Shown: one piece after another, positions 7,349 to 35,331 of the stretch
How the letters are laid out: each line of letters opens with the position of its first letter
How positions within the stretch are numbered: the first letter of the stretch is position 1
Virus record (IMG/VR): IMGVR_UViG_3300002231_000757
Span: 1-35,331 of that record
Direction: 5' to 3' (one strand)
Length of the DNA: 35,331 nucleotides
DNA from: a virus
Notes under the pieces: generated by a model
Seen by the model: only the letters and a program-made list of their open reading frames with translations
The model's database searches: none
Told to the model about the DNA's origin: nothing
Position numbers and translations under genes: made by a program

Positions 7349-8830
7349 ATGGCTGTTATCGACTTAACAAATTATGCAACAACTTTAGTACAGTCTACCG
7401 CTGGTAGAGCAGGTACTCCAGATGGAAATATATTTTTTGACACTACAGGAAAAATAGAATTCCTTACTTCAGACGATTTAACATTTGTTGATCTAACAAG
7501 TGTTGGTGGCGGTCCTGCTGATCCTAATCCTCTTACAGCACAAGACGGAATTAAACTAGAAGCTGTGTATGCTTTTGAAAATCAGGAACGTGGAACAGAT
7601 GAAGTATTAAGGCAGTTTGAAAGATGGACAGATGCTAACTTTAAGTTTGCAGGTTCTTATAACTTTGTTAATTCGCGTAAACCTTCAACAGCAGCAGACA
7701 GAAATGTCATTAGAGGTTCTGGCTGGAAAGAGTTGGCAGCAGATGGAGGTACAGATAGAATTTATTTTGGGGCTAAAGGATTGTCTAATATCCTGTCTGG
7801 ATCTCAACCTTATTATCAATTACTAGCAGGTGGACCTCCTACAGACTTTTCTAAAGTAGGCCAGTTTGATGAGGCTGTACAGGTATTTGGGTCTACGTTA
7901 AATACGCCTTCAGATCAAGGAACAACTGATTTTGACAGTACAGGGGATTTAATGGCCGTGTCCATTAGAACCTTCGGCCAGAATTATGATCGAAAAGTAA
8001 CAACAACTGATCTGTCAATAACGGAACTTGGCGAATTCTCAACAGGTTTTGCAGTAAATGAAACACCTCATTTAACTTCAGGCGCTTTTTCTCTAGCAGA
8101 TGTATACGGGGGATTACAGGCATCTCCTTGGACAGGCAACTTGTTAGAGGAATTAGATGTAGCTCAAGTAGAAACAGGATTTAATGAGATAGATGGTAAC
8201 TTTACTTGGGTTGTGCATAACACAGCATCTTCAAATTTAGATCAGATGGTAGCTTTTCTTGATGCGCTAGCCCAAACAGATGACGATATTAATACACATG
8301 CTATTAATGTCACCAATGGTAAACGTGTAGGTACTTGGTACTCCTATGATGGTGCAGGAAATGTGGTGTGTGATTCACCCTTCCCGGGACAAGGTTTATT
8401 CTTGGAAAATGTCCCTGTAGCAGATGAACAAAAGGTTATCTTTACAGATGATGCAGGTAATACCAAAACAAGGCCATTCTCTGTAGCGATAGAAGCAGAA
8501 TTAGGTGCTGTTGCTAAAGCAGACCCTAAAGCTTGGTATCACTGTTTCTTTGCTGCTGCTTATAATACGGCAGGTGCAGTTACAGTATTAAATTCAACAG
8601 CAGGTGCTATTAAAGGGTTAGTTAGTGTAGATGCAGATGTTAACAATAAGGTAATAGATGCTTTTGACTATGACGGGGATATCTTAGGTGGCCCAGCAGG
8701 ATCAGATAAGAACTGTGTATATCTTTGTGAAGGAGATGGCGGAGCCACACAAGCTAAAACATTATTCACGATAACTAAAACTACTACGGTAGCATTTAGT
8801 GTGGCACCTACTGCAGAAACAAATGTATGA
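7349..8830 (+). CDS. Putative virion structural protein, 493 aa
   Basis: Intact frame with a good binding site (AGGTGAT just upstream). Conserved-looking blocks are RGSGWKELAADGGTDRIYFG, YYQLLAGGPPTDF and AVSIRTFGQNYDRKVTTTDL. I recall similar sequences annotated as structural or tail proteins in phages of aquatic bacteria and in metagenomic contigs. The C-terminal quarter is beta-rich (VSVDADVNNKVIDAFDYDGD). No membrane segment or signal. It lies between accessory proteins and the block leading into the portal, and overlaps the next gene by four bases (ATGA at 8827). The exact role (collar, tail tube or appendage) is not determinable from the sequence. Confidence 0.65.
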   Translation: MAVIDLTNYATTLVQSTAGRAGTPDGNIFFDTTGKIEFLTSDDLTFVDLTSVGGGPADPNPLTAQDGIKLEAVYAFENQERGTDEVLRQFERWTDANFKFAGSYNFVNSRKPSTAADRNVIRGSGWKELAADGGTDRIYFGAKGLSNILSGSQPYYQLLAGGPPTDFSKVGQFDEAVQVFGSTLNTPSDQGTTDFDSTGDLMAVSIRTFGQNYDRKVTTTDLSITELGEFSTGFAVNETPHLTSGAFSLADVYGGLQASPWTGNLLEELDVAQVETGFNEIDGNFTWVVHNTASSNLDQMVAFLDALAQTDDDINTHAINVTNGKRVGTWYSYDGAGNVVCDSPFPGQGLFLENVPVADEQKVIFTDDAGNTKTRPFSVAIEAELGAVAKADPKAWYHCFFAAAYNTAGAVTVLNSTAGAIKGLVSVDADVNNKVIDAFDYDGDILGGPAGSDKNCVYLCEGDGGATQAKTLFTITKTTTVAFSVAPTAETNV

Positions 8831-15799: not shown

Positions 15800-15820
15800 G
15801 TTAAGCGTTAAGCAGTAATT

Positions 15821-15847
15821 GAATACTCCCTCGCAGAGGGAGTATTC
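15821..15847 (+). terminator. 12-bp stem, 3-nt loop hairpin downstream of the capsid gene
   Basis: Perfect inverted repeat: bases 15821-15832 pair with 15836-15847 around the loop GCA. The stem is AT at its base and GC at the top (CTCCCTC/GAGGGAG). Only a weak T tract follows (ATATTTATT), so it may act as a partial terminator or as an mRNA 3'-end stabiliser that raises capsid output relative to downstream genes. Other roles cannot be excluded. Confidence 0.7.
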
Positions 15848-15892
15848 ATATTTATTAACAGAGGTATCACCCTCTTCAAAAGGTATATTCAA

Positions 15893-21575: not shown

Positions 21576-24500
21576 ATGGAATTAGATCCTTTTACTAGAT
21601 TTAAGTTAAATGAACAAAAAGTTCACGCAGAAAAATTAAATAAGCAATTGAAATTAGCACAGGCCGCTGCTAAAAAAAGAGAACGTTTATTTTCTACATT
21701 TTCTCCCACTAAAACCAACGATATACCTTTAGGTTTTGGTATCAGGGATTTTGCTGGTTCTAATATTCAAGTAACACCTTCAACTACAAACAATCCACAA
21801 GATTTCTCTATTGATATAGAAGGTAAAGGAGCATCTCCTAGTCTTCTTGTTGATCTGTTAAGACGTAGAATTTCTAAAACATATTACGCCTACTAGTGAA
21901 GAAATTAATGCAGAAGATGCCATTAATACTTTAAAGGAACGCCAGAGAAAATTACTTAATGACTCATTAATTCAAAGCTGAGCGTGAGAAAACTTCTTTA
22001 GTTACAGATGCTGTAAAGAATACTATTTCAGGTAAATTATTAAATGCTGGGGGCATTTTATTATCTGGAGGTTCTCAAGTTATTGATGCTGTGGGTTCAC
22101 TGCCTTTTGAAGGTGTGAATGCTCTTCAAAATATTGGGATAAGTAATAATCAACGTAAACTTTTTGCTAGTATAAAAAATAAACAAATAGAACAGAAAGC
22201 ACTTCAAATAGAATTGGATAAGCTACCTCCTATAGAGGAGGATACTCCTGAAACTAGAGCACGAAGACGCCAGTTACTTGAGAGGAACTCCGCTCTCAGT
22301 TTTACTAAAGAGGAACAAGCATTATTCACTGATGGTATTAATCCAGATAGTGAAGGTTTACTGACTGAATCTACTTTTGATCAGCTACAAGAAATTGAAG
22401 TAAGAGATTCTTTTATAGATTCTTTTGGAAAATTATCAGAAGATGCAGGTAAACTGGTTAATAGAGATGTCTCTAATAAGGCATTAGGTACATTAGATAC
22501 TAAAAATAAAGAAGCTATAGCAGAATTTAAAAAAGGTAATAATTTAAAAGGCACTAAATTAATTTTAGAAGCTTTTAAAGATTTAGCTTTGGAAGACACT
22601 GAGGCTGCTATTGAGCTATTCTCTGAGTCTCTCCCTCTTATGGGGGCATTAGTTGTTTCTGGTGGCATCACCATGACAGCTTTAACTGCTCAATTTTTTG
22701 ATAAATCTGTAAAAGACTTTGAAAGTGAGAATAACAGATTACCTACCAATGATGAAAAACGTGGGATATTTGTATTGGGCACTGTATTTGCTACTTTAGA
22801 TAGGGTAGGTGCTATTGGTACAGCTCAAGCAGGTAAGATAGGTAAAACCATATTTAAAGGTTTAGAAGGAGCAGGTTTAAAACTAGGAAGCTTAAATAGT
22901 TTTTTGCTAAAGCCATTTACAGCAGGATTTAATACCACAGGAGCTGTGGCATTAGAAGCAGGAACTGAAAGTGTACAGAACGTCCTAGAACAGTTTGCAG
23001 TAAAGCAAGATCTATCTAAGGTAGATTTAGTAAAAGTTATAACAAATGGTCAATTAGGTGGTTTTGGTGGTGGTGTATTCTCTGCCCCAAGTGTGGCTGG
23101 TGCAGCTTTAGCTGTTCCAGCAGGTGTTGCAGCAAAAGGAGTGAATACTCTAGCTGAGAAACGGGATGCTTTCTTAAAAGACGCTAAAGATAAAAAAGAA
23201 GGTCAACTAGCTGCAGATCTTAAAAATAATACAGGTACTAGTGTTGAACTGGCTACTAGAATTGTTTCATCTGGTTTAGGTGATCTTAATGGAGATGAGA
23301 GGAAAGCAAGACTCAACAAATTAAGTGAACTAATAACTAAAGCCAGAAAGGAAGATCCAGAGAAAGATTTATCCGAATTAACTTCTGCATTCTCAGGTTT
23401 AGTGGATAGTCATTTAAATACGCTTGCAAAAGAAAAAGGAGAAACTGTTAAAGACAATTTAGCTACTTTAGCTGAAGAAACCACTGAAGAGAATAAAGAA
23501 GCTAAAACTGAAAGTTTTAACCAAATTGTATCCAGTATTAAAGATGGTACTGAGATTCCTTTAAAGCAACTTGAAGATACAGTATTTGGTAGTAAAGAAT
23601 TTGATGATGCTTCTAAAGAAGATCAAGACACCATAAAGAATAATATAGAGTTACTTACAGGGGCTGAAGAAGTACAAGAAAATATTCTTAAAAAAGATTC
23701 CAAGGGTTTTACTAGTATAACTACACATGCCAAGAATTTATTTAAAGCTATAGCTGTAGGAGATAAAACTGCTGCCTTAGCCACTGTTAAAGAATTAAGT
23801 AATCTAAGGCAACTACAGCAGGATAAACTTAAAGCATTAACATTAGCTGAAAAACGATTCAAGAAATCTAAAAAGCAAGAAGACTTTAAGGTTAATAGTT
23901 TTACTGGTTTTGGGGATAAGAAAACTGCTAGATTTATAAAGGAGTTTGTATCTCCTGACCTTGCTGCTATTAAATTAGCGGAGAAAGGAGCTATTGCTCT
24001 ATTCAATGATTCATTTGATGGCTCAGAGGTCGCTCCTGCACCGTTAGACTCTAAGGTAACCTTTGCAGGGGATACTACTGAAAACGTCTCTGAGGACACC
24101 TCAGACGTGTCTACGGATACATCTACTACAGAAACTAAACCAGTTACCAAGAAAACAGCTAAAACAGCTAAAACAGCTGTTACCAATTCTTCTAAAGTTA
24201 CTAAAGGTAAATTAGCGCTTAATAAGACTGGTAAAGGTGCTCTGACTAAAGTCCTAAATACCTTAAAATCACTCGGTGATAGTAAGAATAAATTACCTAG
24301 TAAAATTTTAGAGGATGAAAGAGCTGCTCAAATAGAAACCCTAAATAAAATTATTGGTGAAAATGGTACTAATGAAGTATCTGAAGAAGAATTTAATTCT
24401 ATATTAGAGAATTTTAAAATATTAAGAAAAGATTTCTTAGCTTTTGATACAACTAAATCAGGGGAAGAGAATGCTAAAATTGTTGAGTCTAAAAGAGCAA

Positions 24501-27500
24501 CTCAGGCAGCAGAAGCTAAGAAGAGAGCTGCACAAAGAGAAAAAGATAAAGCTGAGCAAGGAGTAGAAACTAAAAAAGTATCTGAAACTAAAGCTACTGA
24601 AGTTAATACAAAAGCAGGTAAAGACTCTATTGTAAATGAACAACCAATTGCAGATGAATTATTAGAGAATACCAATGAAAAAGAAGCTTTGATTGTTAAA
24701 GCAGCTAAAGCTTTAGTAGAAGCTGTCAAAAAAGGTACTAAAAAAATTATAGGATTACCTGTTGGTACAACTGTTAATACATTATTTTCTAAGAAAGCTA
24801 AAGCTCCAGTAGGTATTCTAAGTACAGTTCCTGATTTTTTTACCAAGATTAGGAACGATACTCTTAGTAGCTCAGTAATTACCCGGATCCTTGCATTAGC
24901 TGAAGAAGAGACTGCCGTACTTGAACCTCTTCAGAAATTTGTTAGTGCTTTTAGTAATACATTATCTAAGGCAATTCTTGAATTAGATTCTAATGCAGTG
25001 TTTCCAGAACAAATTAATGGAACCAGATCCTCCTTGGAACGTAATCCTTTATTATTCTTTGCAAAAAGAGATTCTAAAGGTAATTTAAGTTTACCTGAGA
25101 ACTTGGTCAGTATTATGAGTACTGTTGGGTTTAACTGGTTAGGTACTAGAAGCAGAGAAACACTTACTAATACAGCAGATGATATTAATAGCATTATAGG
25201 AGCACCTATAGGTACACCTATATCTCCTCGTAATTTAGCTACTTTTCAGAATGTAGGTATAGTTCGAACAGTATTGGCTGAAAATTTAGGTCGTCAGGTA
25301 GTTAAACAGTTGGGTATTAAAATAACTGACACTAATAATTCAGAGGTTATGGCTAAATTAGAAATGGCTGTTGGATTAGCCATGATAAAAACGATGGAAG
25401 ATAATAATTTAGTTGAAATTAGCTCAGTTTCTGCAGAAAGGATGGCTTCTGCAAATGGTATTGAAGATTCTGAAACTAATTTTGATCCTACAAAATCAAC
25501 TAATTTTGTACGTGCTAAATCTACAGCTAAAGTAATTAAAACTAAAAAAGGTAAAGCCAATAAACAAGGTAAACCTGTACTTATTAAAAGTATTTCTGAA
25601 ATAGAAGATTTATTGAGTAAAGCTCCTGAATTTTTAGAATCTTTCTTCGGAATTACTTCCAGTAAGGTATTAGCTGGTTTAGAACCTAATACAGAAATAC
25701 CAAAAACATTAAAAGGTAATAAACAAAAATTACCTTCTAAATTTAAAAAAGTTTTACAGAAGATGCAAGCTGTTAAATGGGAGATTAAACAGAATACTCA
25801 TAATGTTGTTAACAATATTGATAGAACCACTCTACTTAAAATGAGTGGTTGGGTTGATCTGGATAGTGAATCTTTTATTCATACTGATAGGCGTAAACAG
25901 ATAGAAGCAGTAAATGAGGAAATAGAACGTACTATAGATAATTATTTTCTTAATGTTAAGCATGTAGAAAATAATGGTGGATTAAAATCTCCTATCTATC
26001 TTTCCTATGAAGTATGGAAAAATTTCCGTATAGGCATAAAAAATAATACTTTAAATCCCCAAGGCAGTAAGATTATACGTCACCTCATAGGCGTTCGTTC
26101 CTGGAATACTACTGTAGGGGTTAAGGATAAAAGCAGAGTTAACTTTAAGTTAGCAGTAGCTGCTGCATTTGGTTTTGGCATAGATAAAAATAGTTTAGAA
26201 GACAGCTTAAAATGAATTTGAAAGATTACGTAAAGATCCTGTAATTAAAAAAGGAATAGCAGCCCTTAAAGTTATTAATAATCCCAAATCATCAGCTTCT
26301 AAAAAGAAGACTGCTGAAGAAGATCTTGTAGCTGCAGTTAAAGTAGGAGGTGAAGACCTACATAGCTTTGATGGCTTAGTAGCACTGGAAGCCTATAAAG
26401 TTACTAAATCTTTTGAAACTAATATAGGACTGGAGACAGATGGTGTTACTAATGGTCTAGCCCTTGCACTAATGCAAATGCCTGCTGTTTCTAATTCTGA
26501 GTTAGCTTCAGTAGGCATATTCGTCAATGAAGAAACTGGATTAACTTACCCAGAATGGAAGAGTAAACAAGGTAATCAGGATATTTATCAAAAATTAACT
26601 TCTGAGTGGCAAAGGCAGGTTTATTTGTTAGGACAGGGCAATAAAACTATTGCTAAAAAAATTACTGCTTTGGAGTCTTTAATTGGTGCTTTCGTAGATG
26701 CTGATAATCAAGTCACATCTCTCGGAAGACAGATGAGTAAAGACCCTGTCCTATTAACTAATTATGGTGCAGGTAGCGACAGTATTCTTGATAATCTTAC
26801 CCCTATAATTATAGAGAAAATCCAAATTGCTTTAGAAAAAGCTTCACAGGCTAAAGCACCTTCGTCGGTAGAAGCTGAAACCAAAAAAATAGTTACAGAT
26901 ATTTTTACCTTAGCAGGTAAGAAAATTCCTAAAGACTTAGATTTTTCAGATCCTCTTAATTTATCTATAAGTGCAAAATTAGAAACTGTTTTAAGAGGTT
27001 CTATACTAGAAATTTATGGTAATACTTTAAAATCAGCTCTTGAGAAAAAATTAGGATTCTTTACAGAATTTAGGGAAAAAATAAATAATTCCTTAAATAT
27101 CATGTTTGATATATTTAACAAGAAATTTGAAGACAGACAAAAAGCAGAAGTAAAAAGGCTGGGTAGAGAATTATCTTATCAGGAAATCTCAGATATATTT
27201 GATTCTCTCCAAAAATTTCAACCAATAATTAAAACACCTTTCTCTAAAGGAAAAGAAGATGGTCTGTTAGCAGTTAAACTAATATCAGAGAGAGATTACA
27301 AGAGGCTTAGGGATGCTTCTCAGGTTAATTATTCTAAAGGACAACCTAAGTCAGCTGTAGGAGTTATATCCCATACAACTTATCTTAACCCTGGTGTATC
27401 AGGCTTAGTGACAGCTACTCATGCACAGGATGGTTCTATTCAAACTAATATATTTGAGGAGTTTGAAGCTCTCAATATTCATGATGCAGCCATATATGGC

Positions 27501-30500
27501 ATAGCAGATGCTTCTGAGGGTACTAAAACAGCTAATAAAAGCTTCTGGAAAGTAGGAACTAATTATTCAGTATTTCAGGAAGTAACAAATGCTCTTACAG
27601 CTTTAGTTGATGATATTAATTCAGATGCAGGAGCCATGAAAGCAGCAACACAGTCTGTTAGAGCAACTACGAGAGCTAAAGACTTTCCTACCATTAGAAA
27701 CTTTCTAAATGAAATGGTTGATTTTAATGGTTCAGTACAAGCTGCTAGAGCAAATTTACTCAGTGAGGGTCCTATTGGTATAAACCAATTTGCTCTTCCC
27801 GGAGATAGTTCTTTTGAAGCCAATACAGAAGAAACGGTAGAAGTAACTGAAAGCAATATTAAAGAGATTACTGACTCAGTACATACTGAACAAGGTGAGA
27901 TAGCGCCTAGAACTGAACTTCAAATGCAAAATATTTTTAAAGGCATGAAGGATGCTCGTGAATTAGTAGCTTGGTTAAAAGATAATGCAACTACTCCAGC
28001 AAGAAGAGCAATTGCTGCACGCATACAAGAATTAATTCCTGAAGGTGTAACATTAAATTTAAATGCTAAGTTTCCTGTATTAGGTACAGCCAGCTTTAAT
28101 AAATTTAGTGATGAAAGACAGTTTGTGCCTGTATCTATTAGTATACTATCCATTGAAAATGCTGGTAGAAATAAAAATGGGGCTAATGAAATAACGTGGT
28201 TGCATGAATTATTACATGTAGCTACTGTTACTACCCATCAAAGAATAGTTGAAAGAGTTAAATTAACTGAAGAAGAATCTGAGGTACAAGATAACGTACT
28301 AGCAATAGATAATAAGTTAAAAAAACTTATTGCAAATATTTTAAACTCTCCTGAGTTTAATACAAAAGAATCTCTCACAAGATCTGATGAAGAAGTAGCT
28401 AGAGCTGTCGAGAATATGAGACTCTTTAAGAATGCTTTTAAAAATACTCAGGAAATAATTAGTTGGGGATTAACTGATCCTGATTTCCAGAGAGTATTAA
28501 GACAAGTAAAAGTAACTAAAACCAGGTCAGCATGGAATTCTTTTATTGAATTAATGCATGATCTACTTGGTATATCCAAGGATAATTCAGCATTAACTGA
28601 ACTAGTTGATCTATCTTCTCAGTTATTTGATGTAGCTATTCCAGATGGTCCCAACAATCATTTAACAGCTCTGGAAAAAGAAAGAGTTGCATTAGAAAAT
28701 GAAAGAGATGAAATTGATAAACAAATAGCTGAAAGTATTAATGATGAGAGCATAGATGTAAATGCACTTGAAATTAAAAGAAATGAGCTTTTGGAACAAA
28801 TTCTGGACAATCTTAGAAAAGATGATCCAGATAAAGTATTTAATTTATCCACTGAAAAAGAAGAATCAACTACTTTTAATTCTTCAAATGAAGAAAATAT
28901 TGATTTTGATAATTTTACTTCTCAATTTGATGAGAATCTTACAGCTAAGAATTCTGTAGAGATATTTGAAAAAGTTAAACAATATGGTAATAAACAGGAT
29001 TCACCTTCCCATACTGCACACCTTAGAAGCATATTAGAGAATATAGTTAATAAGGTATTGGTTAGAATGGACGCTCAGGATTTCCGTTTAAAAGTAGATG
29101 GCGATAAAACATTTGGAGCGGTAAAAGGTAGAAAAATATTTATTAATGCTTCTGCAACCAGTCGTATAAATAGCCATAGTGAAATGAGTACACAGGAGAC
29201 TCATGTCCATGAGTTATTACACACTACTATGGCTTACGCCATAGATAACTCTTTCTTGTTTAGACAGGAATTACTTAAAATATTTAACGGAGTTAAAGAT
29301 AGAATTACTCCTGATGATTTCTTACTACGTGATGAAAACGGTGATGTAGTAATTAAAAATTCCCTAGAACAAGAGAAAGCCAGTGCTACTGAGAGATATA
29401 ATTATATCTTTAATAATTCCAGGAATATTAAAACTAGTGATCAAACAACTAAAAATGCATTCTTACATGAATTTGTTTCCTTTGGTTTAACCAATGAAGT
29501 TTTCCAGAAAAAATTATCTTCTCTTATTGTTGATAGTACGGTTAAAGTGCCATTGACAGCAGCACAACGTATTAATAATTGGTTTATAAATGTACTTAAC
29601 TGGATTGGTTTTAAGTTTGAAAAGTTACGTAATACAGAAACTGCAGACGTTGCTTTACGTAATTTAGTTGAGCATACAGCTCACACCATGAATAAGCAGC
29701 GTAATAGCCTTCTGGATAAGATGCAGATTAGTCAACAGCTTAATGATAAAGCATCCCAGCTTGCTGTAAATAATATAGTTGAACCTTTTGTTAAATGGCG
29801 TAAAACCAAATTAGAAACATCTACTTCCAGAACAGGAAAAGTATTAAATGCTATTGCTGTGCTGCCTGATACTGTCAGAAGCAAGAAATTTAAAAAAGTA
29901 TTAAGAGAGTTTCTCAGAAGATTAAAAATTACTGAAGATGGTTTATTACTTTCCCTGGTAAGAGAAGTATCCAAAACATCTGTAGATGGTCTTAGATGGC
30001 ATGAATTACTGCGTAAGTCTAAAGATATTATTGACAGGGCACGTAAAACAGCTTCTGAAGAAATTATTGAAGAAATTGAAAATACATTTCTTACAGGAAA
30101 ACCTAACAGTAAGGAATCTACTGCTATTACCAAAGCACTGTTAAAACAGATTTGGTTACCCTTATTGGTAAATATAAGATTAAAGATATTCTTACAGACT
30201 CATCTGAACTGATTAAAGCTATTCAGGATACTCAAAAGGAACTTGATTCTTTTGGCCCTGAAAATAAATCTTATTACGTTAACCAAGCTAGAGGACTAGG
30301 TTTATTAATGGCCTCAGGGGTCGTAGGATTGTATGGATTGCAATTAAACGCTCAAAGTATAGCTACCCTACAGGGTACCCAACAGAGCCTTAAAGAGGGC
30401 TCCTCAAAGCAGGCAGAAGAGATTATTGATAGATTAGCTTCTCTTTACGCATTACAGAATACAGATACTGTGCATAAAGATACTCTCAGTACAGTAATGG

Positions 30501-32368
30501 AACGTGAATATGCTGAAAATGGGGATGATAATGGCATTATCCATTTGCTTAATTTACATGCTGGTGTAAAAGAAGAAGCCTTAAATTCTGTATTTAAAAA
30601 CCAAAAAGGATTAATGATTAAGGGATACACACATGAAACTATTAACCCTAATACGGATATTAAAATAGGCTCTAAAGAAGATGAAGCTGAAATGAACAGA
30701 GCAGGTTATGTATTACATGCTGTTCTTGATCAGGATAGATTTGACAGATCACCTTCTAGAGTAATGTACGTATCTAAAAACAATGCTTCTATAGCCTACC
30801 TAAAAGCTACAGCTTCTCTTACTAATAAAAACAGTAAGGGTTTTAGTTTTCTGGATGCGTATGAGTCTACTCACGCTATGACTGCTATAGATAAAGCAGA
30901 TGAAGCCCGACGTAAAATGAATGCTAAAGTTGATCCATTAATAGCAGCACAATTTAAAGGCACTGTTGCACTAAATACTACAGATCCTATTATGCTACCT
31001 ATCCGTAATTCTAACGGTAAGGTAACGGGATATAGATATGTTCTATCTGAACAATTTAAGGATGAAGTATTTGAGAAAGATAATAGATTTGATCATGTTA
31101 TGGGTAGTATGTGGGGTTCTCTTAAAGATAAGAAGAATTCTAAAACTATCAATAAAGAGGTTATTGATCTAGCCTATGAAGATTTCCAGAATGGGTTTGC
31201 AGAAGATCCTGATGCTTTCGTAAGAATAGCGCTAGATAGTGAAGATCCTAAATTCAGGGAATTGTATAAATTATTACCTAAAGATATGCGTAGAGATATG
31301 ATGGATGTCTTTGGTTCAGACCATATGTTTGTACGAAAAGAATTTGTTGATATTATTTTTGGATATCGAAAAGCTTCTATTGGTAATATTTTTAAAAATA
31401 GTAAAGCACCTTTAGCTAAATCAATAAACAGAGCTTTAAATTTAGGTAAAGTTAAACAGGCTGAACTTATTTGGCAAGAGATAGTTAATGTAGCCAAAAC
31501 TAATATTGTTATCAGGAACCCTGCAGTAATATCAGCTAATTTTATTAGTAATTTAGCTTTATCTTGGGTTAAAGGAGTTCCACCTGGTTATTTGATTAAA
31601 AATCAGGCATTAGCTTTACAAGCTCTAAGAGTTCATAGAGTAGATATCCGGAAATTATCTGCATTAAAACGAAAGGTAAAAATTGATAAAAACCTATCCA
31701 ATTCAGCAGTTACTGCTTTAAATGAGCAGATCTCACAATTAGAGAATAATATTGAGAATAATCCCGTTAATGAATTAATTCAGGAAGGTTTATTTCAAGC
31801 TATAACTGAAGATGTTTCTGATACTCGTTCTATCTACAATTACAGAGATAAATTAATTAATAAATCTAAAGTAATTAAGAAAATACCTAAGCCTATTAAA
31901 GCAGGTGCTGAATTAGCTTATTTATCTGAAGATACTACTATATTTAAGACTATGCTTAAAGCCACTCAATATAGTGATTTCATAGCTAGATTTGCTTTAC
32001 ACAAGCATAATACTGAAGTTAAAGGAATGACTAAGAAAGAGTCTATACAAGATGTAGTAGATGCTTTTATTAATTATGATGTACCTACCAGTAAAGAATT
32101 ACAGTACTTAAATGACATGGGCTTCTTTATGTTCAGTAAGTTCCTATTCAGAATTCAGAAAGTAATATTACAAAACTTTACTGAGAATCCAGCAAGAGTT
32201 CTTTCTTTATTATTAATGCAGGGTGCATTTGGTGGTATAACAGACATACTGGATGATAATTTAATTACAGGAAGCATCACTGGAAGAATGGGTTTCTTTA
32301 AAGGCCCATTTAATTCAGCTACAGATGTTCAGGGATTAAATATTTTATCAGGTATGTTTGGGTATTAA
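21576..32368 (+). CDS. Virion RNA polymerase (vRNAP), N4 gp50-like giant protein (four frame breaks)
   Basis: Single-subunit DNA-dependent RNA polymerase packaged in the head and injected to transcribe early genes. Repaired length 3,596 residues; N4 gp50 is about 3,500. Breaks are near 21862-21879, at 21973-21977, at 26209-26212 (A4 for A3) and near 30141-30148 (one base missing). Residues 1-1050 are a helical, Lys/Glu-rich ejection-type region with Gly/Ala-rich hydrophobic stretches. Residues about 1085-2000 are the polymerase core: T-motif Arg1484, motif A Asp1621 (ETDGVTNG), motif B Arg1717/Lys1721/Tyr1729, motif C Asp1969 (IHDAAIYG). Residues 2209-2631 hold two HELLH domains. The C-terminus is helical, ending at 32368. 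The third break falls inside the core between the T-motif and motif A, so it must be an artefact if the phage is viable. A GTG-rich SD (AGGTGTG) precedes ATG 21576. Confidence 0.93.
24152..24178 (+). repeat. Three copies of the 9-base unit AAAACAGCT
   Basis: Perfect tandem triplet repeat encoding Lys-Thr-Ala units inside the Lys/Thr/Glu-rich linker between the N-terminal region and the polymerase core of vRNAP. Prone to slippage, and probably a flexible tether. Confidence 0.9.
24829..27560 (+). other. Polymerase core of vRNAP
   Basis: Catalytic region within the giant protein. Landmarks by base: T-motif Arg at 26027-26029 in PIYLSYEVWKNFRIG; motif A Asp at 26439-26441; motif B Arg 26727-26729, Lys 26739-26741, Tyr-Gly 26763-26768 in RQMSKDPVLLTNYGAG; motif C His-Asp at 27480-27485. 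Spacings T-A 137, A-Lys 100 and Lys-C 248 residues compare with 135, 111 and 281 in N4 from residue numbers I recall (424, 559, 670, 951). All catalytic residues I know are present. Confidence 0.92.
28050..28640 (+). other. First HELLH metallopeptidase-like domain of vRNAP
   Basis: HELLH at 28203-28217 (EITWLHELLHVATVTTH) fits the HExxH zinc site. A Glu at 28452-28454 in QEIISWGLTDPDFQRVL lies 83 residues on and could be the third ligand, as in gluzincins. An amphipathic helix follows (AWNSFIELMHDLLGI). The order is the same as in the second domain. Confidence 0.7.
29040..29700 (+). other. Second HELLH metallopeptidase-like domain of vRNAP
   Basis: HELLH at 29208-29222 (ETHVHELLHTTMAYA). A Glu at 29469-29471 in LHEFVSFGLTNEVFQ lies 87 residues on, then NNWFINVLNWIGF. 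The three landmarks repeat those of the first domain, about 335 residues apart, so the two domains look like an ancient tandem duplication. Confidence 0.7.
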
Positions 32369-32544
32369 TTTTTATTATTCTCTTCTTCCTCTATAAATTC
32401 CCTATATTGCTGGATAGCAAAATAAATTACTACAGCTATAATTAAGGGTGATATCATCAAACCAATTATTGGTATTAGGAACCATCCTAGTACCAATAAT
32501 CCTGTTATTAATGCTGTACAGAGTATATCTATAAATGATTTCAT
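32365..32544 (-). CDS. Small membrane protein, 59 aa
   Basis: ATG at 32544 shares its A with the stop of the upstream gene (TAATG). Residues about 8-28 (LCTALITGLLVLGWFLIPI) and 29-46 (IGLMISPLIIAVVIYFAI) form two hydrophobic helices, followed by an acidic tail rich in Glu and Asn (YREFIEEEENNKN). Two-helix small membrane proteins are common as the last gene of phage early operons; holin-like or superinfection-exclusion roles are possible, but nothing proves either. Its stop (32365-32367) overlaps the vRNAP stop (32366-32368) from the opposite strand. Confidence 0.7.
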   Translation of the reverse strand: MKSFIDILCTALITGLLVLGWFLIPIIGLMISPLIIAVVIYFAIQQYREFIEEEENNKN

Positions 32545-32738
32545 TATTCAGAAAACACATTTGTTTCTTCTGAAACATTTTCTTCATTATCTAAGATAGT
32601 AACTTCAGCAGTTAAACCTTTATTCTGTTTCATTTTAGTAACTACTTTAATCTGTTTACCCTCAGTAACTACCCCCTGAGCACCAACATAATCAGTAATA
32701 GCAATATTAATTTCATCTTTATCTAGAGATATATTCAT
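32544..32738 (-). CDS. Small phage protein MNISLDKDEINIAI type, 64 aa
   Basis: Starts four bases after the resolvase stop. The N-terminus, SLDKDEINIAITDYVGAQGV, is a helix, followed by two beta strands (KQIKVVTKMKQNKGLTAEVT) and an acidic tail. Similar short proteins with an L-x-x-x-E-I-x-x-A-I-x-x-Y-V start recur in many tailed phages as hypothetical proteins. Function unknown. Confidence 0.65.
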   Translation of the reverse strand: MNISLDKDEINIAITDYVGAQGVVTEGKQIKVVTKMKQNKGLTAEVTILDNEENVSEETNVFSE

Positions 32739-32742
32739 AATT

Positions 32743-33220
32743 TCACACCTTGTAATTTAAAAAAGCATAATGAGCAATCATTAATGCATCTGATTTGCCA
32801 TCCAGTAATCCACCTTTAGGCCCATAAATTTCAGCATCTGGATACAAACGACTACAGATACTTGCTACCTCCTTTTTAATTTCTTTCCCCTTCTTGGTTA
32901 CACCTATTGTTTTCTGCCACTTTTTAGGTTGCACGAAATCAACAGTTACTTGGCTTAATAATGCTAGGGTATTTACTATTCCTACATTATAGCCAAAATT
33001 AAAATTAGATTTAGCTGAGGTTCCAAATACAGAATGTACTTTCTCCAGTAAAATAACTCTTACATTAAAAGAATCTTTAAATGCCTCTATACCAGCCTAA
33101 GATTTTTACTGGATGTTCTGCTGTAGGTATAAAATGTATAAATTTACTCTCAGGAGCAAATAAACATATCTGGCCCATAGAACCAGGATCAATGCCTATG
33201 AAGCCTTGTGGTTTATTCAT
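32743..33220 (-). CDS. RuvC-like Holliday junction resolvase (frame break at 33096-33097)
   Basis: Cleaves branched DNA such as Holliday junctions or replication and packaging intermediates. Repaired length 158 residues; removing one G of the GG pair (plus-strand CC, 33096-33097) joins VKIL to AGIEAFKDSFN. Signature residues of the RNase H-like fold are Asp11 in GFIGIDPGSMG, Glu59 in VILLEKVHSVFG, and Asp140/Asp144 in LLDGKSDALMIAHYA, with the typical VQPKKWQK before the last motif. ATG 33220 has AAGAGAG upstream and overlaps the end of the preceding gene. Cellular RuvC is slightly longer; this is the compact phage type. Confidence 0.86.
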
Positions 33221-33356
33221 TATTACTCTCTTTACCTAATTGGTAACCTTCGCAGAAAGCTTGAAAAGCTTCATAGTCTCTGCTACCAATAGCAATTGGT
33301 TCTATATCTGGTTTATTAAATATTTTTTTAAACAATTTAAATAATTTAAGATTCAT
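33213..33356 (-). CDS. Small hypothetical protein, 47 aa
   Basis: Reads MNLKLFKLFKKIFNKPD, then IGSRDYEAFQAFCEGYQLGK. A basic amphipathic helix at the N-terminus is followed by a short acidic/aromatic helix with a GYQLGK end. Its ATG overlaps the upstream stop (ATGA at 33356), and its own stop lies inside the resolvase start, so translation is probably coupled. Too short to assign. Confidence 0.6.
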   Translation of the reverse strand: MNLKLFKLFKKIFNKPDIEPIAIGSRDYEAFQAFCEGYQLGKESNNE

Positions 33357-33442
33357 ATTTCAATTCCTAATAGTGTTTTAACTTTAAATTTATCCAGTAC
33401 TCTTTTAGCTTCTTCCTTCGTATTGAATAGATCAGAACACAT
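33353..33442 (-). CDS. Very small ORF, 29 aa, possibly the end of a longer frameshifted gene
   Basis: MCSDLFNTKEEAKRVLDKFK followed by VKTLLGIEI, ending in an ATGA overlap with the next gene, as other genes in this operon do. The helix FNTKEEAKRVLDKF looks genuinely coding. The gene may begin at ATG 33493, which overlaps the upstream stop (ATGGATAG), with errors in the T9 run at 33472-33480 and near 33438. That extension is a guess. Confidence 0.45.
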   Translation of the reverse strand: MCSDLFNTKEEAKRVLDKFKVKTLLGIEI

Positions 33443-33485
33443 ATGTTATTAGTGCTAGTACAAAAAAAAATTATTTCTTGATAAT

Positions 33486-33734
33486 CTATCCATGGGCAGC
33501 TCTTATACAGGCTTTAGTGAACTTCTCAGCACTTATAACTTTTAAAAGCTCTTGTGTTTTTAATTTATTTATTATTTTAAGTGCTTTATTTTTATTACAG
33601 TATCTTTCCCTTGATGTAACTGAATAATGATAATAACCCCATACAATTTCTACTTTTACAATCCAATATTCTTTATTACATTTTCGTTTTCCTTTTTTAA
33701 TTTTAGTTTTTACTGTTTTAAATTGCATTGTCAT
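33486..33734 (-). CDS. Small basic hypothetical protein, 82 aa
   Basis: Lys-rich (KTKIKKGKRKCNKEYW), then aromatic strands (WIVKVEIVWGYYHYSVTSRE) and a helix with KALKIINKLKTQELLKVIS. Basic charge and a beta-helix layout would suit nucleic-acid binding, but no motif is recognised. Its start overlaps the end of the upstream gene by 17 bases. A second in-frame ATG at 33728 is possible. Confidence 0.6.
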   Translation of the reverse strand: MTMQFKTVKTKIKKGKRKCNKEYWIVKVEIVWGYYHYSVTSRERYCNKNKALKIINKLKTQELLKVISAEKFTKACIRAAHG

Positions 33735-33936
33735 TTTTATTTACTAAAGTCATATTTTTATTAAAAACAGTTTTACCACCTAAACTAAAAGAAGCGATAA
33801 AAGAATCTTTTTCCAAAGAGTTAATATCTCCACGAATTATGTGAGCTACACTGTTATTAGTTTTTATTACTGTCCAGATTTCATTTTTATTGTTTTTAAC
33901 TTTATCACCAATTTCTACCATCTTAAAAAGGGCCAT
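33718..33936 (-). CDS. Small beta-barrel-like protein, 72 aa
   Basis: The pattern VEIGDKVKNNKNEIWTVIKT, then SVAHIIRG and SLGGKTVFNKNMTLVNK, resembles the strand-turn-strand layout of small SH3/KOW-like barrels found in phage early regions. ATG overlaps the upstream stop (TAATG at 33936). Function unknown; fold is a guess from pattern. Confidence 0.6.
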   Translation of the reverse strand: MALFKMVEIGDKVKNNKNEIWTVIKTNNSVAHIIRGDINSLEKDSFIASFSLGGKTVFNKNMTLVNKNDNAI

Positions 33937-34127
33937 TATGTATTACCATTAAATTGTTGTTCCGTCATATGATCTCTAATACTAGAATCAGCGTAGCAGG
34001 CACTGTAGCCCTCCTCATAAGCTTTTAAGCTTTTCCTAGGGGGATAGCCCTCCTCACAGTCTGAATAGCCTTCAGCGTACTCTAAGGCATCCTTATCGGT
34101 TATTGTATTTGAAATTATATCAGTCAT
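33936..34127 (-). CDS. Small repeat-containing acidic protein, 63 aa
   Basis: Two similar units: YAEGYSDCEEGYPPR and YEEGYSACYADSS, each with GYS and a cysteine three residues after the glycine. Acidic and aromatic; could form a helical hairpin. ATG directly abuts the upstream stop. I do not recognise the family. Confidence 0.6.
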   Translation of the reverse strand: MTDIISNTITDKDALEYAEGYSDCEEGYPPRKSLKAYEEGYSACYADSSIRDHMTEQQFNGNT

Positions 34128-34340
34128 TTAGCTGACCCTTACAAAAGGAATTCCTCGCCCTATTTTTATAAACCCTAAACCTGAAGGATTCGGGGCATAA
34201 GTAGGTAATTTACCTTTGTATTTTCTATCTGACGTGTATATAAATTTTCCTTTTGCGATAGAAGCTTCTGTTGCACTGTTCATAGTAAATATTCTTTTCC
34301 TTTCACGTTTAGTAAGTTTTGGTTTTTTATCCACATCCAT
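34128..34340 (-). CDS. Small basic hypothetical protein, 70 aa
   Basis: N-terminus very basic (KKPKLTKRERKRIFTM), then a short helix (SATEASIAKGKFIY) and a Gly/Pro-rich end (TYAPNPSGLGFIKIGRG). ATG 34340 preceded by GGAAAC. Probably nucleic-acid or protein binding by charge; function unknown. Confidence 0.58.
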   Translation of the reverse strand: MDVDKKPKLTKRERKRIFTMNSATEASIAKGKFIYTSDRKYKGKLPTYAPNPSGLGFIKIGRGIPFVRVS

Positions 34341-34351
34341 AATTAGTTTCC

Positions 34352-34513
34352 TTAATCATCATCAATAAGAGTTACTCTGGTTATTTCAAAACCAGGAGAA
34401 TATTTGGCTATTTTAATTTTATAATTTTCAATAGCTTCTTCTTCCGTAGAAGCTTCTACATGAAAATCATAAGTTCCAATTGTATCTTTTACAGTAATAA
34501 TATAAGAACTCAT
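34352..34513 (-). CDS. Small alpha/beta protein, 53 aa
   Basis: Reads MSSYIITVKDTIGTYDFHVE, then a helix (TEEEAIENYKIKIAKYS) and a strand (FEITRVTLIDDD). This beta-beta-helix-beta layout is common in tiny phage early proteins. AAGG lies about 10 bases before ATG 34513. Function unknown. Confidence 0.62.
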   Translation of the reverse strand: MSSYIITVKDTIGTYDFHVEASTEEEAIENYKIKIAKYSPGFEITRVTLIDDD

Positions 34514-34528
34514 TCGTTATAACCTTAC

Positions 34529-35014
34529 TTATTTTAGCTGTTTAATTAAATTTGAAATTCTTTTATCTTGTTCAATAGATTGTTCAGTAATTCTAATCAT
34601 CATATCTATTATTTCTTGCATTGTGTATTCTTTAGGTGTTTTAGGTGTATTTTTATTGATAGACACAATTCTTTCTTTTTTAGGTTGATCCTTAACATTA
34701 GTAAGAACAGGCAATCCTTTATTAGTTATCTTGGTAAATTCTTTTGGTTCTTTTAAACTTTTGTAATATTTATCTAATCTATCCAAAGCTGTATTAATCA
34801 TAATTGAATTAATATTACCACCTATCCATTTATAGACATTTTTATCTTTATATACAAAATTACATTCCTGCATAATTCTCCAAGCAACATTGGTAATACC
34901 AATTTGTTTACAAATAGTATCCCTGTTTACTTTTTCAGGCTCATAAAGAATATTATATCGTACAGTGGTAAGGAATAATTGCATTTTAGCGAAATATCTA
35001 GGTGTGTGACTCAT
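34529..35014 (-). CDS. Putative DNA-binding-like protein, 161 aa
   Basis: Start placed at ATG 35014 (MSHTPRYFAKMQL) because AAGGA lies eight bases upstream; an in-frame ATG at 35050 falls within the first hairpin and lacks a binding site. The N-terminal 80 residues contain helices with KVNRDTICKQIGITNVAWRI, a helix-turn-helix-like segment, then YKDKNVYKWIGGN resembling a wing. The middle is a Lys/Pro-rich linker (VKDQPKKERIVSINKNTPKT), and the C-terminus a probable coiled coil (MQEIIDMMIRITEQSIEQDK). First gene after the hairpin leader. A DNA-binding or regulatory role is plausible, not shown. Confidence 0.58.
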   Translation of the reverse strand: MSHTPRYFAKMQLFLTTVRYNILYEPEKVNRDTICKQIGITNVAWRIMQECNFVYKDKNVYKWIGGNINSIMINTALDRLDKYYKSLKEPKEFTKITNKGLPVLTNVKDQPKKERIVSINKNTPKTPKEYTMQEIIDMMIRITEQSIEQDKRISNLIKQLK

Positions 35015-35022
35015 ATAAATTG

Positions 35023-35027
35023 TCCTT
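35023..35027 (-). promoter_or_regulatory. Ribosome binding site for the gene starting at 35014
   Basis: AAGGA on the minus strand, eight bases before ATG 35014. It decides this start over the in-frame ATG at 35050. Confidence 0.7.
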
Positions 35028-35042
35028 ATAAAATTAGTAAAT

Positions 35043-35126
35043 GGTTCCATGTACCTAAAAGATGGGAACCTGCACCTCCAGAGAGGGTGCTAGTGGCATC
35101 AACACTAGCTAGAAGTAGGTACTTCT
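35043..35126 (-). other. Three consecutive stem-loops in the leader of the minus-strand operon, plus a fourth small one
   Basis: Plus-strand pairs are: 35043-35050 with 35062-35070 (one bulged G); 35072-35078 with 35083-35090 (one bulged G, loop CAGA); 35090-35095 with 35103-35108 (perfect 6 bp, 7-base loop); and 35111-35117 with 35120-35126 (perfect 7 bp, 2-base loop, or 6 bp with loop AGGT). They fill nearly all the space between the 35148-35160 hairpin and the binding site. Could be a structured leader, a terminator of upstream transcription, or part of a promoter array. Confidence 0.7.
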
Positions 35127-35147
35127 CCGTATGAAATTGCATAGCAT

Positions 35148-35160
35148 ATTGCGGAGCAAT
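35148..35160 (-). promoter_or_regulatory. N4-type vRNAP hairpin promoter candidate
   Basis: The plus strand reads ATTGC-GGA-GCAAT: a perfect 5-bp stem with a 3-base GGA loop closed by GC pairs. The N4 P2 promoter, as I recall it, has GAAGC-GGA-GCTTC on the template strand, sharing the core GCGGAGC. With the plus strand as template, transcription would run to lower coordinates, starting about 11 bases away near 35143, into the minus-strand operon. An alternative long stem, 35125-35129 with 35152-35156, competes with it. Confidence 0.65.
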
Positions 35161-35331
35161 TAATAGTATTTGTCTTCAAATTCTTCTTCACTATTTCTAT
35201 CACTTTTTTTCCTACAAAAAATTTTAGTACCTTCTTTCAGATATAAATTTTTTTCAGGATCTTGAATAAAATATTTACCTTTATATTTAATATAACGTAC
35301 AAACGCATTAGCTGGAACACCTTCATTTAAA
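35160..35331 (-). CDS. Hypothetical protein, C-terminal part (cut by right edge)
   Basis: The frame is open at the right edge, giving 56 residues before the TAA at 35160-35162: VPANAFVRYIKYKGKYFIQD, then an acidic end (RNSEEEFEDKYY). Beta-rich then charged; small single-domain phage protein by appearance. Its stop codon abuts the promoter-like hairpin. No family recognised. Confidence 0.6.
   Translation of the reverse strand, partial: LNEGVPANAFVRYIKYKGKYFIQDPEKNLYLKEGTKIFCRKKSDRNSEEEFEDKYY

Follow-up and report, generated by a model that had tools for sequence, protein, structure and literature searches.

The window analysed here, the first 35,331 bases of a viral contig of 57,895 bases, carries a small hairpin on its plus strand upstream of a group of small minus-strand genes, and the question is whether this hairpin serves those genes as a promoter of the type read by the virion RNA polymerase (vRNAP) of Escherichia phage N4. 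Judged by comparison of strand, loop and position, we consider this probable (about 0.7).

By its gene content the contig is a schitovirus (N4 family) with a vRNAP gene: the Schitoviridae markers SU10-type portal, vRNAP (PHROG 2206), RNAPII subunits, ATPase, DNA polymerase, primase, Sak4 and SSB are present, and the gene order is N4-like. No DNA-level relatives of the window were found among phage records. The plus strand holds the late genes, vRNAP included; from 32.4 kb to the right-hand end of the contig the genes are on the minus strand. Since the RNAPII subunits lie at contig 52.4-54.4 kb, the right end is the early region (52.4-57.9 kb), and the operon at 35.0-32.4 kb forms the distal end of the middle unit and is not early; its location does not support the early timing that a preliminary description of this DNA implied by analogy with N4. 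The same description placed the vRNAP gene in the window, which is correct as to its presence, except that two frameshifts divide the gene into three ORFs. The genes for primase, DNA polymerase and one RNAPII subunit likewise appear split or short (contig 40954-43093, 44333-46927 and 52384-53175), and an N occurs at contig 35332 and at 53091. The frameshifts in several genes and the two Ns indicate that the contig contains sequence errors or broken genes.

The hairpin and its surroundings

The 13-mer ATTGCGGAGCAAT at 35148-35160 occurs once in the contig. As first described, it forms a perfect 5-bp stem with a GGA loop and the core GCGGAGC, and the three-base loop lies on the template strand, as in the N4 promoters; stems of N4-type promoters measure 5-7 bp. 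The rules reported for vRNAP recognition are a C:G-closed loop with G at -10, a purine at -11 and A at -12, a G contact at -8, and four As that act as a ruler to +1 (PMC4496689). The loop C-GGA-G at 35152-35156 agrees with these rules in its closing pair and in all three loop bases, and G35151 corresponds to the G at -8. A GG start (template CC) 11 nt from the loop centre and an A-rich spacer are absent, the template +1 base being A and the spacer differing from AAAA. Folded as single-stranded DNA, the 13-mer adopts the same hairpin at -2.2 kcal/mol, compared with -2.4 and -2.7 kcal/mol for equally trimmed N4 P2 and P1.

The hairpin is correctly oriented, 98 bp (ATG 35050) or 134 bp (ATG 35014) upstream of the first operon gene, and is located in the distal middle region, past ssb, primase and DNA polymerase, rather than in the early region. 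It had been described as lying in the only large intergenic gap; the space is not open, since its right arm shares one base with a stop codon, at 35160-35162, that belongs to a gene on the minus strand. Rfam and tRNA searches gave no match. Nor does anything point to a sigma-70 promoter at the site: the segment 32300-35331 holds 12 promoter-like matches against 17.5 expected, and none of them falls at the hairpin.

Could this one copy have arisen by chance, even if the hairpin family to which it belongs is real? The stem has only 5 bp, and when wider flanks are folded the competing stem listed in Table 1 is the more stable, at -5.6 against -2.5 kcal/mol. Moreover, no conserved counterpart of the gene junction was found, and the relatives are too distant for a test of site conservation. 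Against this, only about 0.02 such hairpins are expected per contig, and the copy combines the right orientation, a position 98-134 bp before a start codon, a core identical to that of N4 and a matching flank, which makes a chance origin quite unlikely.

Table 1. Coordinates of the hairpin, neighbouring genes and related features in the window.
Feature	Position	Strand	Description
Candidate promoter hairpin	35148..35160	+	Template-strand hairpin ATTGC-GGA-GCAAT, core GCGGAGC 35151-35157; would read toward minus strand
Upstream minus-strand gene, 3' end	35160..35331	-	Whole gene contig 35160-35549, exits window; stop TAA 35162-35160
Competing larger fold	35136..35161	+	AATTGC (35136-35141)/GCAATT (35156-35161); would sequester hairpin right arm
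Predicted transcription start	35142..35143	-	35143 by N4 spacing, 35142 by relatives' context; RNA-sense flank TATGCAATTT; inferred
Predicted structured leader	35015..35142	-	Four further inverted repeats
First operon gene	34529..35050	-	173 aa from ATG 35050 or 161 aa from ATG 35014; no known family
Further small operon genes	32402..34513	-	No known family
GGA hairpin	29283..29297	+	6 bp, antisense within vRNAP gene, same orientation
Weaker GGA hairpin	8737..8747	+	TGGC-GGA-GCCA, 4 bp, antisense within late gene
vRNAP gene	21971..32368	+	Three ORFs (21971-26212, 26211-30209, 30113-32365); two frameshifts

Strand bias of triloop hairpins in the contig and its relatives

Each strand of the contig has 13 copies of the pentamer CGGAG. 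A stem of 5 bp or longer, with four or more further pairs, surrounds 6 of the 13 plus-strand copies and 0 of the 13 minus-strand copies, where dinucleotide shuffles predict 0.02 (plus) and 0.04 (minus) such hairpins per contig, and the original impression that the hairpin exceeds chance is thus borne out. The six plus-strand copies have the first base of CGGAG at 29288, 35152, 41029, 51148, 56332 and 57418; a further plus-strand copy at 8740 has three further pairs, and no minus-strand copy reaches even three. The preliminary description had made its proposal depend on further copies upstream of early operons, and such copies are present at contig 57410 and 56327, with others in the middle region at 51144 and 41024. 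The five copies of the minus-coding zone lie 98, 67, 49, 92 and 134 bp upstream of start codons. As 18.8% of positions fall 40-140 bp upstream of a start codon, the probability that all five do so by chance is 2e-4. The copy at 41024-41038 precedes a sak4 homologue by 67 bp, a position like that of the relatives' distal-middle hairpins, which immediately precede sak4 or ssb.

As a control, the C(GNA)G scan, with stems from 5 bp upward, was applied to N4. Its template strand gave P1 (90-102), P2 (557-573), P3 (4546-4562) and one other hairpin, its opposite strand a single one. The CGGAG hairpins of N4 are exactly P2 and P3; both carry GCGGAGC, so that the core identity claimed for P2 holds and extends to P3. 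A T7 control (GAA loops, 2 vs 0) was too sparse to weigh.

The relatives examined were six named genomes and 80 IMG/VR loci, the latter from an alignment query with vRNAP; a single-protein vRNAP search had given one short contig. Alignments of RNAPII yielded no usable pattern or six loci only, and whole contigs were taken instead. The resulting set of 27 genomes comprises 20 IMG/VR contigs, the six named phages and the present contig, with genes defined as simple ORF picks and not by annotation. Within 10 kb downstream of vRNAP, the 15 GGA hairpins of 63 non-redundant loci are all on the template strand, and the hairpins near vRNAP lie 7-92 bp before sak4 or ssb, gene identity being judged from sequence and position. 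The GNA triloop class is exceptionally stable as DNA. In the 27 genomes, the commonest closed triloops on the template versus the other strand are CGGAG (63/2), CGAAG (60/13) and CGTAG (33/5); C(GNA)G loops are the only strongly biased ones, the remaining common loops being near balance apart from a milder bias for GCTAC (23 vs 10). At least one GGA copy is found in 23 of the 27 genomes. In early and middle zones, C(GNA)G hairpins number 138 on the template strand and 17 on the other, and 81 of the 138 are intergenic where roughly 5-20% would be expected. Late zones show 35 vs 11, at a far lower density. The nearest relative, G001 (42% identity in the C-terminal part of vRNAP), has neither a template-strand GNA family nor another obvious hairpin family, and the family is therefore not universal.

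A bias of this kind could also arise if the hairpins acted in RNA, as terminators, processing sites or protein-binding sites at gene ends. In the RNA sense they are indeed one-sided and often intergenic, the 35148 copy directly follows a stop codon, and 13 of the 81 intergenic hairpins have at least five T among the 8 nt that follow the stem; TAGTTTT comes after the 57410 copy. The other 68 lack a U-rich tail, there is no U-tract at 35148, and the bias is specific to C(GNA)G triloops in the template register, the RNA-stable C(UNCG)G tetraloop register reaching only 46 vs 26. The triloop register on the template strand, the weak UNCG bias and the scarcity of U-rich tails make action at the RNA level very unlikely.

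Signals for replication or recombination on one strand, such as sites for single-strand initiation, primase or an annealing protein, would explain why the hairpins keep to one fixed strand along most of the genome, with some inside late genes (the 35 vs 11 above), and why they often precede sak4, ssb and primase genes. Such a role can scarcely be credited, given that three copies of the same type are the proven N4 promoters and that the hairpins are concentrated in early and middle zones, intergenic and just upstream of genes. The occurrence of copies in both the early and middle regions, together with the one-sided family in relatives, instead argues for promoters, and the promoter identity and minus-strand direction first proposed for the 35148 hairpin are well supported by these comparisons.

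Start context and the polymerase that reads the hairpin

The start site was predicted from N4 spacing and from the sequence context in relatives. In Vibrio phages, T-G-T-G-A or T-G-G-A, counted from the +1 of N4, follows many hairpins, one base after the GG position of N4. More generally, the base at N4's +1 is often T in the RNA sense (template A) in relatives, with the start context (TGTGA, TATGC) one base later, and several distal-middle GGA hairpins continue with TATGCAAAA, TTTGCAAAA, TGCGCAAAA, TATGAA or TGTGAA. The preliminary description had noted the template A at +1 as a departure from N4; the departure is real, and it weighs less since relatives often have the same base. The RNA-sense flank at 35148, TATGCAA, matches the relatives' context and ranks in the top 0.5% of positions with a matrix built from 15 distal-middle hairpins, or in the top 1.7% and 8.7% with broader training sets. 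This match is post hoc and lends no more than moderate support to a start context at 35148; the two early hairpins of the same phage do not match it.

In the mechanism that we infer, which covers extrusion, binding, start site, polymerase identity and timing, negative supercoiling would cause the plus (template) strand to extrude the C(GGA)G minihairpin, and a hairpin-reading phage polymerase, most likely the phage's own vRNAP, would bind it. N4-type hairpin promoters need SSB as well as supercoiling. Minus-strand RNA would start near 35142, about 12 nt from the loop centre, and the transcript would comprise a structured leader followed by the small genes from 35014/35050 to about 32.4 kb. The 35148 hairpin would then be the most distal of at least five such promoters over the early and middle regions of this phage. 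A polymerase that reads a template-strand hairpin would account for strand, loop and position together, and since the early copies share the hairpin type, vRNAP is the natural candidate.

The vRNAP of the contig is about 14% identical to that of N4 and retains the catalytic residues K437, R440, D559 and K670 of N4 mini-vRNAP, while the region of the promoter contacts K114, R119, W129, D901 and R904 cannot be reliably aligned. The -8 base is A, A, A and T in the minus-zone hairpins other than 35148, and across the family it is C in 44, A in 44, G in 35 and T in 15. Because the contact residues are not alignable and position -8 is variable, recognition probably depends on the loop.

A different reader for the middle-region hairpins would be RNAPII, of the gp15/gp16 type and with a single-strand-binding cofactor. 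The contig encodes RNAPII subunits and many hairpins lie in the middle region, where the genes are RNAPII territory in N4 (PMC4496689). The early and middle hairpins of one phage share the loop class, however, and in Vibrio phages the start context too, and the early hairpins must be read before RNAPII exists. Nor is any hairpin requirement known for RNAPII, and we consider this alternative unlikely compared with recognition by vRNAP.

The predicted leader contains the repeats GAAGT/ACTTC, CTAGTG/CACTAG, GCACC/GGTGC and GGTTCC/GGAACC within 35040-35135, with a possible GTACCT/AGGTAC pseudoknot, a DNA fold z-score of -3.8 and no Rfam match. For the first operon gene, ATG 35014 has a better ribosome site (AAGGA) than ATG 35050, and its protein has no relatives in IMG/VR or phage records.

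Relation to known hairpin promoters

The hairpin resembles N4 P1-P3 in being a template-strand hairpin with a three-base loop, a C:G closing pair, G and A at the loop ends and a purine in the centre. It further shares the GCGGAGC core with P2 and P3, reads toward genes of the early/middle direction and occurs in a genome that encodes vRNAP. Unlike the N4 promoters, it lacks the GG start and the AAAA spacer, and whereas all three N4 promoters have G at -8, this position varies within the present phage (A, A, A, T, G). It is also placed differently, in the most distal part of the middle region and some 17 kb past the RNAPII genes, where N4 lacks any such hairpin. The 1.5-kb gap of N4 between gp47 and gp48 (32113-33631), which is without annotated genes and occupies a distal middle position like that of the present operon, contains no C(GNA)G hairpin with a stem of 5 bp or longer. 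Between vRNAP and RNAPII, the number of hairpins is 0 in N4, 5 in Alteromonas phage PT15-A5, 5 in Vibrio phage PG11, 11 in D497 and 3 in the present contig.

N4-like early hairpins with 4-5-nt stems and 3-nt loops, three per genome, have been predicted in LIT1, LUZ7 and PEV2 and in the Pectobacterium phages CB1, CB3 and CB4 (PMC3715699; PMC6027278). Those reports inspected the early region only, in contrast to the family described here, which extends through the middle region and is backed by strand statistics over 27 genomes. The arrangement recalls T7, where many promoters of a phage single-subunit RNA polymerase point in the same direction across the genome (T7 annotation); T7 promoters are double-stranded sequences, whereas the signal here is a DNA hairpin and the polymerase is carried in the virion. 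What appears to be new is the dispersal of N4-type hairpins through the middle region of many schitoviruses, of which a literature search found no earlier report. A long-read primary transcriptome of LUZ7 reportedly describes promoter architectures, and for that reason the novelty is provisional.

The whole family has so far been viewed on the model of the three early hairpins of N4. Outside the N4 genus, the vRNAP of most schitoviruses may not be confined to early transcription: one-directional hairpins could allow it to transcribe replication genes directly, and perhaps to re-engage repeatedly and so pull the genome into the cell. We offer this wider reading tentatively; the hairpins concerned run through the middle region, ahead of ssb and sak4, and in places lie inside late genes in antisense orientation. 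If many relatives do have hairpin promoters along their middle region, the way in which vRNAP and RNAPII are held to share early and middle transcription would need revision, the force behind genome entry would become testable promoter by promoter, and many hairpin-polymerase pairs would be available for studying how a polymerase reads a DNA hairpin.

Other repeats were noted in the same genomes. The early-region gap at contig 55360-55580 is dense in inverted repeats, including a long stem GCTATAAAGCCG-TCCTA-CGGCTTTATAGC and TGGTGC/GCACCA, and a late-region gap at window 15820-15848 holds a 13-bp hairpin TGAATACTCCCTC-GCA-GAGGGAGTATTCA adjoining a direct repeat that contains gcttaacgcttaac. 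An AT-rich schitovirus contig (G020, 28% GC) has eight GGA hairpins, all of them on the template strand and several with the stems TATGTTC or ATGTTC, and is a good candidate for a simpler promoter family.
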